Virus record (IMG/VR): IMGVR_UViG_3300025869_000081
Location: 1-26,504 of that record
DNA: 26,504 bases
Direction: 5' to 3' (one strand)
Source of the DNA: a virus
Shown in pieces: positions 6,987-26,114 of this stretch. A model generated the notes under the pieces. That model saw nothing but the letters and a program-made list of their open reading frames with translations. It was not told the DNA's origin and ran no database searches. Each line of letters starts with the position of its first letter. Positions within the stretch are counted from its first letter, which is position 1. A program made the position numbers and the translations under genes.

Positions 6987-8695
6987 ACGTTAACATCCAA
7001 TTGATCGATGACCCCTAAACTAAAGGTTGCTTGTTTTTGGGCTTGAACTGCCTTGCTTTTGGGTACTGCTCTAAGGAACAGATCAGATCGTGAAGAGTCC
7101 CAATCCGTAACACCCAGCACAGTTAAATTACCCTTGAGATAATCAACTGTTCCTATTCTATAGTTGATATATTTTCTTGTATTGTTTTCTAGAATAAAGA
7201 ATCTCAAGAAGCCATTTCCATCATCATCAATATATCCTACGTTCTCATCAGCATCTACAAATCTAGGATCACTAATCAACTGGAACTCTCCGCTGACTTG
7301 ATTTTTTACTAAGTTATTGGCAAAAGAGATGTAGAGGTTTCTGTTGTCTGAATCTGCATTTGGATATTCATATCCAAAGAAGGTCTTAGAAAGTTCTACA
7401 CTAAAGTCCACAGATCTAATCGCACTATTTTCATTTACAAGTTCTGATACAATCGTGGAATAAGGAAATATATTTCTAAATCCACAAGCGGGATCATACT
7501 CTCTGATTTTACTAGAGACTATTGCGTTTAAACCAGATCCATCAATACTAACCAATCTATCAAATATGATTTCGCCACTAAGAACATCGATATTGTAGCA
7601 TGTTGGTTGGACAAACTCAGGAAGAATACCGACTACCGTTTTCTCTTGTAGTTTTGCACCAAAAACCGATAGTTCTTTGTCACTGAACGTGCTACCCTCG
7701 GCATCTCTGACGCAGGCTAAAAATAATCTACCATACTGAGGAGGATTATTATCCTCACCACCCCATGCAGTGGCATCAAAGACTTCGGGGTTTTCTACCT
7801 TGAACACAATCTCGGCATCCTCTGCTGTAACTGCTCTGTTCTGTGCTTGGAAGTATGATGGAGCATTTCTTCTAATGCTTTCAATAGTCTCTCGTTCGGC
7901 ACCTCCGAATGAAGGAGTTACTACTTCATTGATTGTGATGGTAGGTTGACCACTAACAGGTTCGCTGGTAAAGTTTTTTTCTCCATTTGCATTGTTGACT
8001 CCATTTGGGGTCAGGTACTCAACGACAACATTAGAGTCTTCAGGAACTGCGACTCCATAGTTACCATCACCGAATGAAACTTCATATGCTCCAGAGTAAA
8101 TTGGATCAACAAAATACACTTGAGACGAAGCAGACAAGACAGAGATTCTATCTGCCTTACTAAATTCAACTCCACCAACTGTTACTTTCAGGGAGGATAT
8201 ATCGGCAGTCTCAGGAACTGTGACTGCACCATTAAAGTAAGTGGTGTTTGATGTTTTTAAACTAGATGAATTTTGAAATACTGTGATTGTCCCAGTGCTA
8301 GTTCCAAGTTCAATATCGTCTTTTACTATGAAGTTAAAACCAGTATCACTTCCCTTAAATACGCGACCTGCCTTTATTAAAGTACCAGTGCTAACCGTTA
8401 CGTTTAGTTCGGCTCTGGCAGCAATTCTAGATTTTGGTGTATATCCAACGAGTCTTGCAAGAGAAACTAGAGAATCTCTCTTTTGTGCTGAGTCTATGAA
8501 ACTTTCGTTTGCTAGGAAGTTTGTGTAGGTTGAAAAGAAAGTTGTGTTGTATGCCAGAAGATCGATTAGCGTAGATAGAGCCGATCCATTAAAATCGTAA
8601 TCACTAAACTCTGCTTTAGTTTTTATAAAATCAGTGAGAGATGTTCTCACCTGATTAAAATCTGTTTTACTAAGGTTGATATAAGAATCTGGCAT
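6983..8695 (-). CDS. 6: Baseplate wedge protein gp6
   Basis: A 570-residue homologue of T4 gp6 (660 residues), which forms the inner iris of the baseplate and triggers sheath contraction. The N-terminal 110 residues show the family pattern: a helix with FIKTKAEFSDYDFNGSALST, then LIDLLAYNT, LANESFIDSAQKRDSLVSLA and RLVGYTP. The central segment with a GG-x-ERETIESIRRNAPSYFQ stretch, AVTAEDAE and the DVLSGEIIF strand matches J-like baseplate proteins. Its start codon shares one base with the gp25 stop (TAATG), and its stop overlaps gp7, so gp25-gp6-gp7 appear to be translated as a coupled set, as expected for the wedge core complex. Confidence 0.93.
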   Translation of the reverse strand: MPDSYINLSKTDFNQVRTSLTDFIKTKAEFSDYDFNGSALSTLIDLLAYNTTFFSTYTNFLANESFIDSAQKRDSLVSLARLVGYTPKSRIAARAELNVTVSTGTLIKAGRVFKGSDTGFNFIVKDDIELGTSTGTITVFQNSSSLKTSNTTYFNGAVTVPETADISSLKVTVGGVEFSKADRISVLSASSQVYFVDPIYSGAYEVSFGDGNYGVAVPEDSNVVVEYLTPNGVNNANGEKNFTSEPVSGQPTITINEVVTPSFGGAERETIESIRRNAPSYFQAQNRAVTAEDAEIVFKVENPEVFDATAWGGEDNNPPQYGRLFLACVRDAEGSTFSDKELSVFGAKLQEKTVVGILPEFVQPTCYNIDVLSGEIIFDRLVSIDGSGLNAIVSSKIREYDPACGFRNIFPYSTIVSELVNENSAIRSVDFSVELSKTFFGYEYPNADSDNRNLYISFANNLVKNQVSGEFQLISDPRFVDADENVGYIDDDGNGFLRFFILENNTRKYINYRIGTVDYLKGNLTVLGVTDWDSSRSDLFLRAVPKSKAVQAQKQATFSLGVIDQLDVNV

Positions 8696-9081
8696 TATCT
8701 TACTCTTTCTAAAGTTATTTCTATTGTGTCCTCATCATCTAAAAAACTATATTCAATTTCTACTTTCAATTCTTGGATGACATCGTTATAGTCAACTAAA
8801 ATTTGTCTTAGAGTAACCCGTGGTTCAAATACTTCAATAGCATCCCTAACCTGACTTCGGACTTCTGACAACATACCAGGCGATGGCTGTTCAAAAAGTT
8901 TGGAAACTACATTAGCACCAAGAGAGGGACGAAACGGTCTTTCATAAAAATTAGTCAGCACGACATTTCTCAAAGCCTGCTTGATTGCATTGTTGTCAAA
9001 TTTACGAGCGACATCTTTCGTTGCTGATTTTGCAAAGTTAAAATCGAGGTCAGAATATCTAAACTTATCTGTTGTAGCCAT
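8695..9081 (-). CDS. 25: Baseplate wedge protein gp25
   Basis: A 128-residue protein, almost the T4 gp25 length of 132. It has the gp25/lysozyme-like fold signature: a helix with NAIKQALRNVVLTNFYERPF, then RPSLGANV and LFEQ, a helix with VRDAIEVFEPRV, and C-terminal strands with VEIEYSF. The EPR motif, diagnostic of the family across contractile machines, is at residues 86-88. gp25 starts sheath assembly on the baseplate and forms the core bundle with gp6 and gp7, whose genes follow immediately. No catalytic lysozyme activity is expected for this family despite the name. A recognisable Shine-Dalgarno is weak, so coupling to the upstream hub gene 15 bases away is possible. Confidence 0.93.
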   Translation of the reverse strand: MATTDKFRYSDLDFNFAKSATKDVARKFDNNAIKQALRNVVLTNFYERPFRPSLGANVVSKLFEQPSPGMLSEVRSQVRDAIEVFEPRVTLRQILVDYNDVIQELKVEIEYSFLDDEDTIEITLERVR

Positions 9082-14852: not shown

Positions 14853-15458
14853 ATGTCAGGATTTCAATTCGATCTCAGTCTAATAACCAATGCCAGCGAT
14901 CGTGCTGCGGCCGCAGACGCTAGAAACAAAGCATTTAGAACAACATCTGCTAGATCAAAAACTCCTAGTCAAATTTTTGACAAGTATACTTTTGATATTA
15001 TGATTACTCCGCCAGGAGGTTCTGGTTTAGGTACATTCAGTACGGCAGAAGGAGATTTTCATGCCTTAACCTGTACCACTCCAACAAAGAGAATTGCATC
15101 TGATGAGAAAACCCTTTGGGGTCCAGTTTACAATATTCCATACGCTCGTCTCTACAGTGGTGATTTTGAGATGACTTACCTATACAATCAAGAACTACAT
15201 CAATACCTCATGGACTGGACTGAAGTAGTCGTATCTAATAGTAGAGACAGAGCAGGTTACTATGACGATATCGTAGGGAAAATTGAAATTGATTATCGTA
15301 GTAGGGCAGAAACAGACGCCAAAGTAACCAAATATAAATTGAATGATGTGTTTCCTCTGTCTGTAAATGGTCTTGAACTTGATATGTCTTCTACAAACTC
15401 ATATCAAACAGGAAGCGTATCATTCTCGTTCCGCGATTTTGAATTAACTATAGAATAA
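14853..15458 (+). CDS. Tail-tube-fold protein (gp19 family)
   Basis: A 201-residue protein. The C-terminal half (VTKYKLNDVFPLSVNGLELD, then SSTNSYQTGSVSFSFRDFEL) matches the closing strands of T4 gp19 (IEIKGLWPTNVGELQLDWDS, then IQTFEVTLALDYWE). The middle (FDIMITPPGG, HALTCTTPTKRI, GDFEMTYLYNQE and YLMDWTEVV) also parallels gp19, including the W that precedes the variable loop. It could be the main tail tube subunit or a gp54-like/tube paralogue, because gp18 sheath and the usual gp19 neighbour are not in the window. It has a good GGAGAA ribosome site and precedes the tail chaperone and tape measure genes. Confidence 0.75.
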   Translation: MSGFQFDLSLITNASDRAAAADARNKAFRTTSARSKTPSQIFDKYTFDIMITPPGGSGLGTFSTAEGDFHALTCTTPTKRIASDEKTLWGPVYNIPYARLYSGDFEMTYLYNQELHQYLMDWTEVVVSNSRDRAGYYDDIVGKIEIDYRSRAETDAKVTKYKLNDVFPLSVNGLELDMSSTNSYQTGSVSFSFRDFELTIE

Positions 15459-15472
15459 AAAAGGATTAAGTA

Positions 15473-16198
15473 ATGAAGTTAGGTGAATTGTTGAGATCGG
15501 AATTACCCGATTATAGTGTAAAACTGCCTTCTACTGATAAGGCATTATCGTTTAGACCTTTTCTTGTGAAGGAAGAAAAGACTCTACTGCTAGTTTCTGA
15601 AGAAGGAAATGAAGTAGATGTGCTAAGAGCGATTAAAAATATTCTAGAGAATTGCTTTGAGGATTTAGACTTGAGTTCGATCTCTCTAGGAGAAGCAGAA
15701 TATCTGTTTGTCAAACTACGAGAAAGATCTGTAGGAGAAACTTTAGAACTGGTCTATGGAAAGGGTTTAACCAAGAAGCCAATAAACCTAGATCTTCGCA
15801 AGATAAAAGTTCCAAAGAGAACAGGCAATAAAAAGAGTAAGTTTAACATCACAGAAAACATCTCGGTTACGCTCAGAGAATTGACTTTAGTTGATGTAAT
15901 CAAAAACGAGATCAACATATGGAATTCGGATCAGGATGACTACATCAAGATGATTGCTTCTATCATCGAGACAGTCACACTAAAGGAAGAATCGCTAGGA
16001 TCTACTGATCTATCGCTTGCAGAAAAAGTTGACTTCATTGAAAACATGACCGAGCATCAGTTCACAGAGTTGGCTGAGTTCTTAAAAAATGGACCAAGAT
16101 TATCACACACAGTCAAGGTAGAGCAAGAAGAAGGCGAAGACACAGAAATAGAAATCAATGGGCTAAATGATTTTTTCGGCTTAGTGTCTCTCATATGA
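15473..16198 (+). CDS. 26: Tail/baseplate hub assembly chaperone, gp26-like
   Basis: A 241-residue acidic protein resembling the T4 gp26-type base plate protein family (T4 gp26 is 208 residues). Diagnostic segments are LPSTDKALSFRPFLVKEEKT at about 18-37, then LLLVSEEG, IKNILENCFEDLDL, and EAEYLFVKLRERSVGE, with DFIENMTEHQFTELAEFL near the end. It precedes the probable tape measure, the position of the first tail-assembly chaperone in many tailed phages. The ribosome site AAGGA is 8 bases before the ATG. Just before its stop lies an in-phase TTTTTTC heptamer that would shift ribosomes into the overlapping 55-codon frame, giving a predicted 296-residue fusion alongside the short product. Confidence 0.8.
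   Translation: MKLGELLRSELPDYSVKLPSTDKALSFRPFLVKEEKTLLLVSEEGNEVDVLRAIKNILENCFEDLDLSSISLGEAEYLFVKLRERSVGETLELVYGKGLTKKPINLDLRKIKVPKRTGNKKSKFNITENISVTLRELTLVDVIKNEINIWNSDQDDYIKMIASIIETVTLKEESLGSTDLSLAEKVDFIENMTEHQFTELAEFLKNGPRLSHTVKVEQEEGEDTEIEINGLNDFFGLVSLI
16171..16177 (+). other. Predicted -1 ribosomal frameshift slippery site (T TTT TTC)
   Basis: The heptamer TTTTTTC fits X_XXY_YYZ exactly in the chaperone reading frame: GAT-TTT-TTC, with TTT at 16172-16174 and TTC (F235) at 16175-16177. After a -1 slip reading resumes CGG CTT AGT GTC TCT CAT ATG and stays open to TAA at 16360-16362. The fusion would add RLSVSH and then the 55-residue small protein. This is the arrangement of G/GT tail-assembly chaperones upstream of tape measure genes. 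No stimulatory stem-loop was defined by eye. Confidence 0.65.
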
Positions 16199-16362
16199 AC
16201 TTAGAAGGATTTATGAAACTTGTGTTTCAACTAATCCACCACCATAAGTACTCGTATGGAGACATCATGAAATGGATTCCGTGGGAAAGAGATGTATTTA
16301 TTTATCAGTTACAGGCTTGGTTAAAGGAAGAAGAAAGAATCAAATCTCAAAATAGAAGGTAA
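16195..16362 (+). CDS. Small tail-chaperone partner (T-like part), probably made by frameshift
   Basis: A 55-codon frame beginning at an ATG that overlaps the upstream stop as ATGA. The product starts MNLEGFMKLVFQLIHHHKYS, continues with YGDIMKWIPWERDVFIYQLQ, and ends in an acidic-basic helix (WLKEEERIK). The pattern of a short lead, a Y-x-D-I-M turn, a P-W-x-R-x-V motif and a charged helix is usual for small tail-assembly chaperone segments found next to tape measure genes. No Shine-Dalgarno lies before the ATG, so expression should depend on re-initiation at ATGA or, more likely, on the -1 frameshift at 16171-16177. It ends 4 bases before the next gene. A T4 gp51-like role as hub assembly helper is an alternative name. 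Confidence 0.65.
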   Translation: MNLEGFMKLVFQLIHHHKYSYGDIMKWIPWERDVFIYQLQAWLKEEERIKSQNRR

Positions 16363-19410: not shown

Positions 19411-19629
19411 CTAAATTGGGAGTTTTGCTGAGGTTACTTGAGGCAGGATATTGAGATCTCTGCCTTCGATTTCTAACTTCTCGATGATAGGCTTTGTGAG
19501 AGTCTTTGCAATAAAAACGGGGTCAATATCGTATTCTTCGCAAATACTCAACACTGCCTCGACGTAGGTTCCACCATTTTCTTTCACATAAGTTTCAATC
19601 TCATGTGGGAAGTTTATATCTTCAATCAT
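19411..19629 (-). CDS. 33: Late-transcription coactivator gp33-like
   Basis: A 72-residue acidic protein. The pattern NFPHEIETYVKENGGTYVEA, VLSICEEYDIDP, then a second helix (IAKTLTKPIIEKLEIEG) resembles the short gp33 proteins of marine T4-like phages; T4 gp33 has 112 residues. gp33 binds host RNA polymerase and the sliding clamp and, with the sigma-like gp55, activates late promoters. The short C-terminal end (LNILPQ...SAKLPI) is hydrophobic, as expected for a clamp-binding tail. Location next to gp32 agrees with the T4 cluster 32-59-33, though no gp59 lies between them. The ribosome site AAAGGA is 6 bases before the ATG. Identification rests on length, pattern and neighbourhood. Confidence 0.7.
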   Translation of the reverse strand: MIEDINFPHEIETYVKENGGTYVEAVLSICEEYDIDPVFIAKTLTKPIIEKLEIEGRDLNILPQVTSAKLPI

Positions 19630-22741: not shown

Positions 22742-23308
22742 TCACTCTTCTTCGTTTAGTTCATTCGCCGCGTCAATCGTTTCCTTGATGCCTCTGCTGG
22801 CGGGCTTATCTTCGACTGCTCTGGGTCTGAACTTAATTGCTCCCTCTTCAAACTTTTCAGTCTGCTCGGAGTTTACCAACTTCATGTTTTCCTGAATCTC
22901 GGTAACCTTATCCAACCATTCCTGAAAACCTTGACCGTAGTTCATCACAATCTCTTCCCCTTCCTTGATATCATCAAGGGCAGTTAGAGCAGTAACGGAC
23001 TCGTTGTAATCATGAACTAGAACGGCGTTGGGTTCAAGAGAGTGATTGGTAAACTGACAATAACCAAACGGAATAGCAAAGTTAATGCCTTCCTTCTGAC
23101 ACTTCTCACAGTTACAGTTGATGCCGTAGGAATAGTGGTGAAGGGCGGGGTCGCGGTTCTCGTTCTGCGACCTATGTGTGGTTCGGACGAAGATCGTCTC
23201 TTCAATAACCTCACCCTTTTCGATCGCTTCCTTTGCGAATAGACCGTAGCGGTGTAGATTAGATTGACGAACAGCAACCTTAGTTGAAATCTTTAGTTCT
23301 TCTTTCAT
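22742..23308 (-). CDS. SET-domain protein (putative protein-lysine methyltransferase)
   Basis: A 188-residue protein with a compact SET domain at about 8-126. Visible motifs are the N-terminal strand RYGLFAKEAIEKGEVIEE (20-37), the pseudoknot strand CQFTNHSLEPNA (84-95; N88-H89 contact S-adenosylmethionine in the family) and IKEGEEIVMNYG (114-125; Y124 in the place of the catalytic Tyr). A CNCEKC cluster (65-70) is inserted in the middle and may bind zinc. After the domain come a charged helix and an acidic tail. The family methylates lysines on proteins; a phage or host target is unknown. It ends exactly where the convergent 520-residue gene ends and has an AAAGGA ribosome site. Confidence 0.8.
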   Translation of the reverse strand: MKEELKISTKVAVRQSNLHRYGLFAKEAIEKGEVIEETIFVRTTHRSQNENRDPALHHYSYGINCNCEKCQKEGINFAIPFGYCQFTNHSLEPNAVLVHDYNESVTALTALDDIKEGEEIVMNYGQGFQEWLDKVTEIQENMKLVNSEQTEKFEEGAIKFRPRAVEDKPASRGIKETIDAANELNEEE

Positions 23309-23325
23309 GATGAATATCCTTTAAA

Positions 23326-23335
23326 GTATATATTA
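23326..23335 (-). promoter_or_regulatory. Candidate TAATATATAC promoter element of the SET gene
   Basis: The minus-strand sequence GGTAATATATACTTTAAAGG lies 18-27 bases upstream of the SET start, with its 5' end overlapping the stop codon of the zinc-finger gene. It shares GTAATATATA with the tract upstream of gp33. A single -10 type element would fit a T4-like late promoter. Low confidence because AT-rich runs arise by chance. Confidence 0.3.
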
Positions 23336-23542
23336 CCGTGCCCGAGAATACTCTCGGTTGAGTCGTCGGACGTTTTCCTTACCCTTAGCAATGAACAACT
23401 CACCCGCAGTCTTATGCGAGTAGATCATTCGTGCTACAACGGGCGCCGCGTGCTTGTCCGCACATTTCACGCAGTAGTCAGTTTCGCCAATCGCTTCGAT
23501 GCGAGCAGCAGGAATTTCGTTATTACAATCAAGACAGTTCAT
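23333..23542 (-). CDS. Small DksA/TraR-type C4 zinc finger protein
   Basis: A 69-residue protein whose first 30 residues form the zinc finger: C3-x2-C6, then NNEIPAARIEAIGE, then C24-x2-C27. The IP-x-x-RI-x-A stretch between the pairs is the DksA/TraR family signature. In DksA and TraR this finger supports binding in the RNA polymerase secondary channel, but the coiled coil with the acidic tip is missing here, so a transcription role is only possible. The rest is a basic helical tail (KGKENVRRLNREYSRAR). No Shine-Dalgarno is seen; the start lies 7 bases after the stop of a small upstream frame, suggesting coupled translation. Confidence 0.75.
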   Translation of the reverse strand: MNCLDCNNEIPAARIEAIGETDYCVKCADKHAAPVVARMIYSHKTAGELFIAKGKENVRRLNREYSRAR

Positions 23543-23936: not shown

Positions 23937-24150
23937 TGTCATTGATCCTATCTAAAAGAAGGTTCCACTTCATCAGTGCCGTTTCGTGTTCGGCAATCTT
24001 ACCCTGAACAATCTTAAGCAGTGTCGGACTGTCGTAATCATACGCACCACCAAGACCATTCATGCCTTCATTCTTAACGAAAACAATATCACGATCGGGG
24101 TGAGTATGAATCTGGTATGGTCCAGCAAAGTCATGAACTTCGCCTTTCAT
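23929..24150 (-). CDS. Hypothetical 73-residue protein
   Basis: The start ATG at 24150 is chosen over an upstream one at 24264 because GGAAGGTGGG lies just before it and because ATGA overlaps the previous stop. The product (MKGEVHDFAGPYQIHTHPDR and onward) contains an HTHPDRD segment, a Gly/Tyr/Asp turn and a C-terminal helix (KIAEHETALMKWNLLLDRIN). No family was recognised. It belongs to a run of small genes joined by 4-base overlaps. Confidence 0.6.
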   Translation of the reverse strand: MKGEVHDFAGPYQIHTHPDRDIVFVKNEGMNGLGGAYDYDSPTLLKIVQGKIAEHETALMKWNLLLDRINDNA

Positions 24151-24407
24151 GGTCCCACCTTCCTTACCTTGTTGTCCTTGCGAGAGAGCATCCACATCAC
24201 GCCGTCGTTGTCTTCCCAGACCCAGTAGACTGGTTGTGACGGATCTTCGATACGAAGCAACCACAACTCGGCGGTTGCGTCCTGAATCTTTCGGTTATCT
24301 TGGAGTTCCTTCTTGGTGTCGTCCCAACGAAAGAACAGAGTCATCGAAATCAAAAGAGAAATGATTGCGATACAAACCAGAAGTTCTAGTGTACTAAATG
24401 CTCTCAT
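24147..24407 (-). CDS. Type IV pilin-like single-pass membrane protein
   Basis: An 86-residue protein beginning MRAFSTLELLVCIAIISLLI. This resembles a class III prepilin N-terminus: a short basic leader (MRA), cleavage point before F4, and Glu at mature position 5 (E8), then a hydrophobic helix to about residue 26. The soluble part is short (about 60 residues), charged and Trp rich, with no disulfide pair. The start is set by the ATGA overlap and AAGGA; an upstream ATG at 24464 would add an Arg-rich stretch. Pseudopilins and pilins build secretion or pilus fibres; a phage copy could interfere with or mimic host pili. It may equally be an inner-membrane spanin or an unrelated anchored protein. 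Confidence 0.5.
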   Translation of the reverse strand: MRAFSTLELLVCIAIISLLISMTLFFRWDDTKKELQDNRKIQDATAELWLLRIEDPSQPVYWVWEDNDGVMWMLSRKDNKVRKVGP

Positions 24408-24685
24408 CGGTATCCTTGCCTCCACTCGTCGTTTGCGGCGTTTGCTTCGTCTTTTGCATACCATTCGCCGTAGATGATCAGAGACTCTGGATCGGGAGCA
24501 GGACCACGGGCGTCTGCTTCGACGATCTCTTGTCCTCGTTCAGAAATCCAACCATCAAACTCGTCGGTCCATCGGGCTCGATCATTCTTACCGATGATCT
24601 TACCAGTAATAAAACAAATGTCTTCCATACCAATCCATTCTTCTACCATACGGGGCAGAACCTTTACCATAGTCTTGTCAGTCAT
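24404..24685 (-). CDS. Hypothetical 93-residue protein
   Basis: The start at 24685 is chosen because it overlaps the previous stop as ATGA; an ATG at 24694, closer behind AGAGGA, would add MAR. The acidic product has a central segment (EDICFITGKIIGKNDRARWT) and ends with YGEWYAKDEANAANDEWRQG. It is Trp and Asp rich with no signal peptide. No family was recognised. Tight overlaps on both sides tie it to the small-gene operon. Confidence 0.6.
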   Translation of the reverse strand: MTDKTMVKVLPRMVEEWIGMEDICFITGKIIGKNDRARWTDEFDGWISERGQEIVEADARGPAPDPESLIIYGEWYAKDEANAANDEWRQGYR

Positions 24686-24904: not shown

Positions 24905-25299
24905 GTCCTGTCGGGTGGATAGGCAGGAATATTTTCCCCCATATCGTTCCACCCATATACTTTCCATACATCACCCACCTGAAAATCTTCAGGCTTTATC
25001 ACTGCTGCCCACCAGACTCCGTTGCCATATTGTCTACTGCCATCTGGTAGTTGAATTTGGTTATATCCATCTGCATTGGCAGAGTCTGTTGCCAACTGGT
25101 GAATGATTTCTCCATCACGGTAGATCTCAACGACCCATTTTGCATTCGGGTTTGCTTCGACCCATTCATCAACAGTCACTTCACCATCAGATAGATTAAC
25201 AGATTGATATCCATAAGTAGATGCTGAAATGGCGGCTGGTCCTCCTGATCCCGTGTCGTCCGTGACATCGAAATCACCCTTGACTAGATCAACCGCCAT
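24901..25299 (-). CDS. Hypothetical acidic 132-residue protein
   Basis: Starts MAVDLVKGDFDVTDDTGSGG and has beta-strand patterns (WVVEIYRDGEIIHQLA, NGVWWAAVIKPEDF, VWKVYGWNDMGE) with seven Trp residues. No signal peptide or membrane helix. It overlaps the end of the dockerin-type gene by 16 bases and therefore belongs to the same transcript. Tryptophan-rich beta sequence could reflect a binding module, but no family was recognised. Confidence 0.6.
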   Translation of the reverse strand: MAVDLVKGDFDVTDDTGSGGPAAISASTYGYQSVNLSDGEVTVDEWVEANPNAKWVVEIYRDGEIIHQLATDSANADGYNQIQLPDGSRQYGNGVWWAAVIKPEDFQVGDVWKVYGWNDMGENIPAYPPDRT

Positions 25300-26114
25300 T
25301 CCGCTTTTGGGACGATGAAATGCCCCCCTCGGGCATTGTCGTTCGGAGTTTCGTTCATAGTCAAGAGTAGAATGTGATCAGCAGATTCCCACAGAGGGTT
25401 GAAGTCTTCGCTGATCTCGACTGGAGGCTCAGGCGGATCGGTGGGGTCAACATCACCCCCACCGTTCGCAGCCTCGATCTGATCCTGCCACGAGTCGGAG
25501 ATGGCTTGGAATAGAAGTTCCATGTCCGCCATGTCTACTACACCATCTTTGTTGAGATCGTATAGAGGATTGTCTGTTCCGAGTGCGTTAATCAGCAGAG
25601 TCTGGTCGAGTTCATCGACCCAACCATCACCATTGAAGTCTGCGAGTTGTCCTTCGAGACGAGTAACGATTTCCCATATAACTGGGACTTCGATGTTCTC
25701 GCCTGCTTCTACACGCTGACTCACGACTGTGATGATTCTCTTTGTGCTGGGTTCCCAACAAACCAAACCAGAATACTGTTCTGGAATAATCGGAATGATA
25801 CCATCACTGAGTTGAACCATAAGACGAATGCTCATGGTACGAGCGACTGATGTGCTGTTGGTCCATTCTACTGTACCGTCCAGTGCAAACGGTCCAACAT
25901 AGTCACCCATTGGTCGTTCGTAAACTGCAACCACCTGTCGATCCCCCACATCTCCTTCAGAAATGGTGAGGATGGACTCTACGCCTTCATCGCTCAACTG
26001 AGGGAGTCTGGTCGTGGTAGTTGGTTTAGGCATTCGCGGAGGACAATCAATGTCCTGTGCAAATGCACTATTACTTGCCAGTACGGCTGCTAGTGTTAAT
26101 GATTTCAAGATCAT
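25284..26114 (-). CDS. Secreted protein with a dockerin type I-like calcium-binding domain
   Basis: A 276-residue protein with a Sec signal peptide (MILKSLTLAAVLASNSAFA, cleavage before Q20). The middle (45-150) is beta-rich and resembles an immunoglobulin-like or surface domain. Residues 159-205 hold two dockerin-type repeats: loops DFNGDGWVDELD (159-170) and DLNKDGVVDMAD (186-197), each with the D-x-N-x-D-G-x-V-D-x-x-D calcium pattern and a following helix. A Pro/Asp linker and a C-terminal domain follow. Dockerins bind cohesin domains in extracellular complexes and are abundant in some bacteria, including Planctomycetes. AAGGGAG precedes the ATG, which lies inside the holin-like gene. Secretion by the infected cell is inferred; the role is unknown. 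Confidence 0.75.
   Translation of the reverse strand: MILKSLTLAAVLASNSAFAQDIDCPPRMPKPTTTTRLPQLSDEGVESILTISEGDVGDRQVVAVYERPMGDYVGPFALDGTVEWTNSTSVARTMSIRLMVQLSDGIIPIIPEQYSGLVCWEPSTKRIITVVSQRVEAGENIEVPVIWEIVTRLEGQLADFNGDGWVDELDQTLLINALGTDNPLYDLNKDGVVDMADMELLFQAISDSWQDQIEAANGGGDVDPTDPPEPPVEISEDFNPLWESADHILLLTMNETPNDNARGGHFIVPKAEWRLI

Follow-up and report, generated by a model that had tools for sequence, protein, structure and literature searches.

The G and GT proteins of phage lambda, products of the frameshift found in tail chaperone genes of long-tailed phages, are a proven pair of short and long tail chaperones, the long product being the minor one, and the roles ascribed to chaperone domains in binding the tape measure and tube proteins come from this phage (PMC5009743). 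According to two other papers, some T4-like phages have one short and one longer fusion gene in place of frameshifting (PMC10885494, citing Vladimirov, Gautam and Davidson 2022, Virology 566:9-15), and poly-T signals for slippage, located within the short gene in these phages, are credited to Vladimirov et al. 2022 (PMC12846349). In the Vandenendeviridae and Andersonviridae a -1 shift has been predicted in the chaperone locus, at a T-rich site that precedes the gene for the tape measure, and the extension is routinely annotated as a separate hypothetical gene (PMC12846349). Here we explore a comparable locus in the IMG/VR virus record IMGVR_UViG_3300025869_000081 (26,504 nucleotides (nt), hereafter the window, meaning the whole stretch analysed), a 26.5-kb viral record from a T4-related marine myophage, in which a gp32-like protein and tail genes like those of T4 are encoded. 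Its gp26-like gene, overlapped by a 55-codon open reading frame (ORF), is predicted to give rise to both a short and a long tail assembly chaperone, very probably by means of a programmed -1 frameshift.

By homology the locus belongs to the same family as T4-like gp26 and gp51 (PF12322, phrog_150 and phrog_634) and encodes the same short/long pair. T4 and its close relatives have two genes, with gp51 an in-frame fusion, whereas the window has one gene and a predicted -1 frameshift. The lambda G/GT slip heptamer differs from that of the window. As in lambda, the long product would be minor, although the lambda products are proven and those of the window are predicted from sequence. The Vandenendeviridae and Andersonviridae are other phage families and, unlike the window, carry a conserved GTTTTT motif (PMC12846349). 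Since the short/long arrangement is attributed to Vladimirov et al. 2022 in the papers that cite them, the window is not new in kind; the locus is a divergent new member of a system whose principle is already known for T4-like phages. The initial annotation of this DNA had proposed that a frameshift version unifies the T4 and lambda-type systems; its frameshift reading is supported here, but the unification is not new.

The gp26-like ORF encodes 241 amino acids (aa). Near its end the run aatgaTTTTTTCggc contains the heptamer TTTTTTC, which lies in X_XXY_YYZ phase with the 0-frame codons GAT TTT TTC (T_TTT_TTC) and is followed by six sense codons (ggc tta gtg tct ctc ata) and the TGA stop at 16196-16198. 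The -1 frame is free of stops from the heptamer until the one at 16360-16362 and reads FF-RLSVSH-MNLEGF..., so that the predicted fusion has 296 aa, 235 upstream residues being joined to the -1 extension after F235. Heptamer phase and position (16171-16177, six codons before the stop), the -1 frame open over the overlap into the small frame, and the F235-RLSVSH junction all agree with the initial annotation, as does its remark that the small frame lacks a Shine-Dalgarno (SD) sequence of its own: no SD-like stretch is present in ttcggcttagtgtctctcat, ahead of the ATG of the 55-codon ORF, which overlaps the gp26-like stop as ATGA. In the large ORFs of the window, in-phase T_TTT_TTN is found 3 times among ~7,100 in-phase positions, and the chance of finding one in the last ~8 codons of a given gene is about 0.3%, conservation uncounted. 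Elsewhere in the window, a 128-aa gene (8695-9081, minus strand) has an in-phase TTTTTTA 52 nt before its end, probably by chance.

Relatives without the heptamer, or with a stop in their -1 frame, had been named at the outset as the outcome that would speak against a frameshift, and the comparison did not refute it. All 80 loci collected from viral contigs, which are 28-37% identical to the window protein and related to each other, have an open -1 frame across the overlap and, 7-16 nt ahead of the gp26 stop, an in-phase T_TTT_TTN. The seven nearest relatives, with small frames 75-85% identical to that of the window, all have T_TTT_TTC at the same distance, an open -1 frame, and ATGA. Fifteen named phages with a single gene were included (phiN3, Cr30, Melnitz-2, YB07, DLP_6, EniLVp02, nt-1, OLIVR5, S-PM2, S-SSM7, C48C1, Aeromonas P19, Cronobacter S13, ValKK3 and K448), of which all but K448 have both heptamer and open -1 frame (14/15); the heptamer-bearing ones span the Kyanoviridae, Straboviridae, Pootjesviridae, Emdodecavirus, Menderavirus and others. 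None of the 15 records annotates the gene as a joined coding sequence, and in Aeromonas P19 and Cronobacter S13 the small frame is unannotated, its first start codons lying 89 nt (P19) and 50 nt (S13) past the gp26 stop. The stop of the K448 gp26-like gene overlaps an ATG (TAATG).

Codon choice at the site was evaluated in 72 non-redundant loci, that of the window among them. At 72/72 sites a T precedes the first Phe codon and this codon is TTT, a combination jointly expected at 0.30 per locus from the codon usage of the same genes, and TTT TTC is used at 63/72 sites versus 5 of the 70 Phe-Phe pairs elsewhere in these genes. Judged by these frequencies, the codon choice at the heptamer cannot be explained by the Phe-Phe peptide alone. 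One could argue that the heptamer is incidental to a conserved C-terminal Phe-Phe, Phe234 being invariant in the gp26 alignment and Phe235 almost invariant, and that the -1 frame is either a gene of its own or a relic; given codons so far from those of other Phe-Phe pairs, a preceding base that is always T, and a -1 frame that is a conserved protein domain across families, this can be given almost no credence.

Profile searches match the 0-frame protein to PF12322 (T4_baseplate, 1.4e-46) and phrog_150 (1.9e-49). Its AlphaFold2 model is confident, with a predicted local distance difference test score (pLDDT) of 89.8, and a structure search with this model matched viral proteins annotated as baseplate hub proteins. 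The -1 frame, read from the heptamer, matches phrog_634, the gp51 family, at 7.6e-20; phrog_634 is matched by 41/41 tested -1 frames. The extension shows homology to the T4-type gp51 C-terminus (hhalign, 5e-13), and when predicted fusions and seven gp51 proteins are compared as profiles, the alignment covers columns 16-292, unbroken across the junction (E 2.7e-25).

In T4 itself gene 26 stands back to back with gene 51, which is on the opposite strand. PF12322 is present in both gp26 and gp51 (8.8e-64 and 3.9e-52), which also match each other by BLASTP (2e-6), and the phrog_634 domain is present in gp51 only. The T4 functions had earlier been described as separate genes, 26 and 51; the two proteins are not two halves of a whole, gp51 carrying the N-terminal domain as well as the extension domain. 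By these comparisons T4 gp26 and gp51 are paralogues, gp26 being the counterpart of the short form and gp51 that of the long one, here hard-wired. The C-terminus of T4 gp26, GLKEFFELL, keeps the GLxxFF motif and has no in-phase slip heptamer there. An unrooted tree of the shared domain separates single-gene from two-gene phages at a branch supported at 99/99 and unites the gp51 proteins in one group (support 100/99). RB43 (L094:3001-4294) has a long gp51-type and a short gp26-type gene in tandem on one strand, the T4 pair being on opposite strands. The window's own record, a 26.5-kb fragment, yielded one match to the gp26-like protein, not the separate short and long genes of the T4-type arrangement.

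The small frame might instead be translated by coupling, re-initiation at the ATGA producing a free 55-aa gp51-like protein with no frameshift. The ATGA overlap of the window and its seven nearest relatives would permit this, as would the stop-start overlaps of Cr30, YB07, EniLVp02 and nt-1, and the small frame, where annotated, is a separate gene. When 86 non-redundant loci were surveyed for ATG, GTG or TTG among the 12 codons that open the -1 frame, 27 of them had no start codon, and at only 2 of the remaining 59 is the first start preceded by an SD-like four-base stretch; in Aeromonas P19, as noted, the first start comes long after the stop. The -1 residues at and just after the slip are conserved even without a preceding start (FF invariant, R in most), the fixation of the heptamer would have no reason, and T4-type phages carry the same domain fused in frame. 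We therefore regard coupling as a very unlikely explanation of the locus.

Elements that could stimulate a -1 shift are found on both sides of the heptamer. At 87% of sites, versus 24% of control windows, there is an SD-like match of 4 nt or more, in most cases with its end 8-10 nt 5' of the heptamer, and the Glu codon at this element is GAG in 48/58 versus 29% elsewhere. Downstream, 60-nt windows starting 3-6 nt past the heptamer have better predicted folds than shuffled sequences (mean z -1.5 to -1.75), z being about 0 for those at +20 to +40. In a cyanophage-type set an 11-bp hairpin 5 nt past the heptamer covaries, with 21 double-change cells versus 7.2 shuffled (0/500 as high) and a score of 0.227 versus 0.146, and some other loci have hairpins of 56-66 nt at a similar distance. 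The window has a predicted 82-nt stem from 6 nt past the heptamer (z -4.30, 0/200 shuffles as stable; minimum free energy (MFE) -29.1 kcal/mol over 16178-16270), a possible stimulator. These elements bear on a further alternative, in which RNA polymerase slips on the T run and length-changed messenger RNAs yield the same fusion without ribosomal frameshifting. The run of 6 T (8 in Melnitz-2 and C48C1) is a possible slip site for a polymerase, yet C is kept as the seventh base (TTC) at 63/72 sites and the run is not lengthened, while the SD-like element and downstream hairpin of many relatives would act on ribosomes; polymerase slippage is on these grounds extremely unlikely.

Several points weigh against a programmed frameshift or its proposed stimulators. 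Vibrio phage K448 (L089:2435-3175) has a gp51-like -1 frame of 58 codons without the canonical heptamer, and a scan of viral contigs for relatives of its gene found none. The naive joint probability of the codon pattern, 1e-37, ignores relatedness and is not to be taken literally; since the 80 loci are mutually related, it overstates the evidence. The SD-like element is absent from the window itself, and the cyanophage-type hairpin set was partly picked for good folding. The window's long stem is partly kept or absent in the nearest relatives, and for this reason it was set aside as a decisive stimulator. A structure search for the fold of a solved chaperone ranked HK97 chaperone 2OB9 third by E-value, a match that was not significant (E 1.2, probability 0.30). 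Finally, re-initiation at ATGA could add some free C-terminal domain in the window's clade.

Layout, conservation and homology of the predicted fusion with T4 gp51 are as described above; ribosome slippage, the product ratio and the assembly roles are inferences. Most ribosomes would read the gp26-like frame to its stop and produce the 241-aa short form. A fraction would slip back by one base at T_TTT_TTC, with two tRNA-Phe in the P and A sites, and read 61 codons of the -1 frame to produce the 296-aa long form, which ends in a C-terminal domain of gp51 type. If the two forms work as lambda G/GT do, their common N-terminal domain would coat the tape measure protein, and the additional domain of the long form would recruit tail tube subunits. 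Coordinates of the features are collected in Table 1.

Table 1. Features of the predicted chaperone locus and its flanking genes, in window coordinates.
Feature	Position	Strand	Evidence
gp26-like short chaperone ORF	15473..16198	+	PF12322, phrog_150, AlphaFold2 model
Slippery heptamer T_TTT_TTC	16171..16177	+	sequence; conserved in relatives
-1 C-terminal extension (RLSVSHMNLEGF...NRR, stop included)	16177..16362	+	phrog_634; hhalign to T4-type gp51 C-terminus
55-codon ORF inside -1 extension	16195..16362	+	phrog_634 1.6e-17; ATGA overlap
Predicted long stem, candidate stimulator	16184..16265	+	MFE and shuffles
Presumed tape measure gene, 670 aa	16367..18379	+	position only, by comparison with Cr30
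Tail-tube-like gene, upstream	14853..15458	+	phrog_45 1.9e-14

The 670-aa ORF directly downstream is in tape-measure position, and the gene in the same place in Cr30 is annotated as tape measure. Profile searches of this ORF gave no informative match and none naming a tape measure, and when the presumed tape measure protein was used as the query of a scan, two fragments, both nearly identical to the window, were all that it retrieved. The remaining genes of note are all on the minus strand. Adjoining the gp32-like gene is a 72-aa phage late-transcription coactivator (19411-19629; PF16805, 9.8e-18). A 188-aa SET-domain protein (22742-23308; PF00856, 3.4e-14) is likewise encoded on this T4-like phage contig, followed by a 69-aa DksA/TraR-type zinc finger protein (23333-23542; PF01258, 8.4e-7) and a 105-aa protein whose prepilin N-methylation motif is weak (24147-24464; PF07963, E 0.035, under the curated cut-off). 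At 25284-26114 a 276-aa protein combines a signal-peptide-like N-terminus with a type I dockerin domain (PF00404, 9.2e-9). A genome scan with this protein found only two relatives, both in Phycisphaerales metagenome-assembled genomes, with the similarity confined to the dockerin part (39-40% identity); these relatives may be a weak hint at a planctomycete host.

We infer from its wide distribution, which includes the Straboviridae nt-1, ValKK3, P19 and S13, that the frameshift state may be ancestral. A broader scenario, which we put forward tentatively and with some doubt, is that the heptamer is near-fixed across several phage families while the stimulators turn over by lineage, and that in the T4 branch one duplication hard-wired the short/long pair, after which the frameshift was lost. 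The lineage stimulators in such a turnover would be the SD-like element with a 31-nt hairpin in many cyanophage-type loci, the 56-66-nt hairpins in others, and the 82-nt stem in the window. Programmed frameshifting would account for the expression of a small frame that some records list as a free-standing gp51 gene and others, those of Aeromonas P19 and Cronobacter S13, leave unannotated. This would concern T4-related phages of marine and other bacteria, and the breadth of conservation, together with the codon test and the candidate stimulators, makes the proposal directly testable by reporter.
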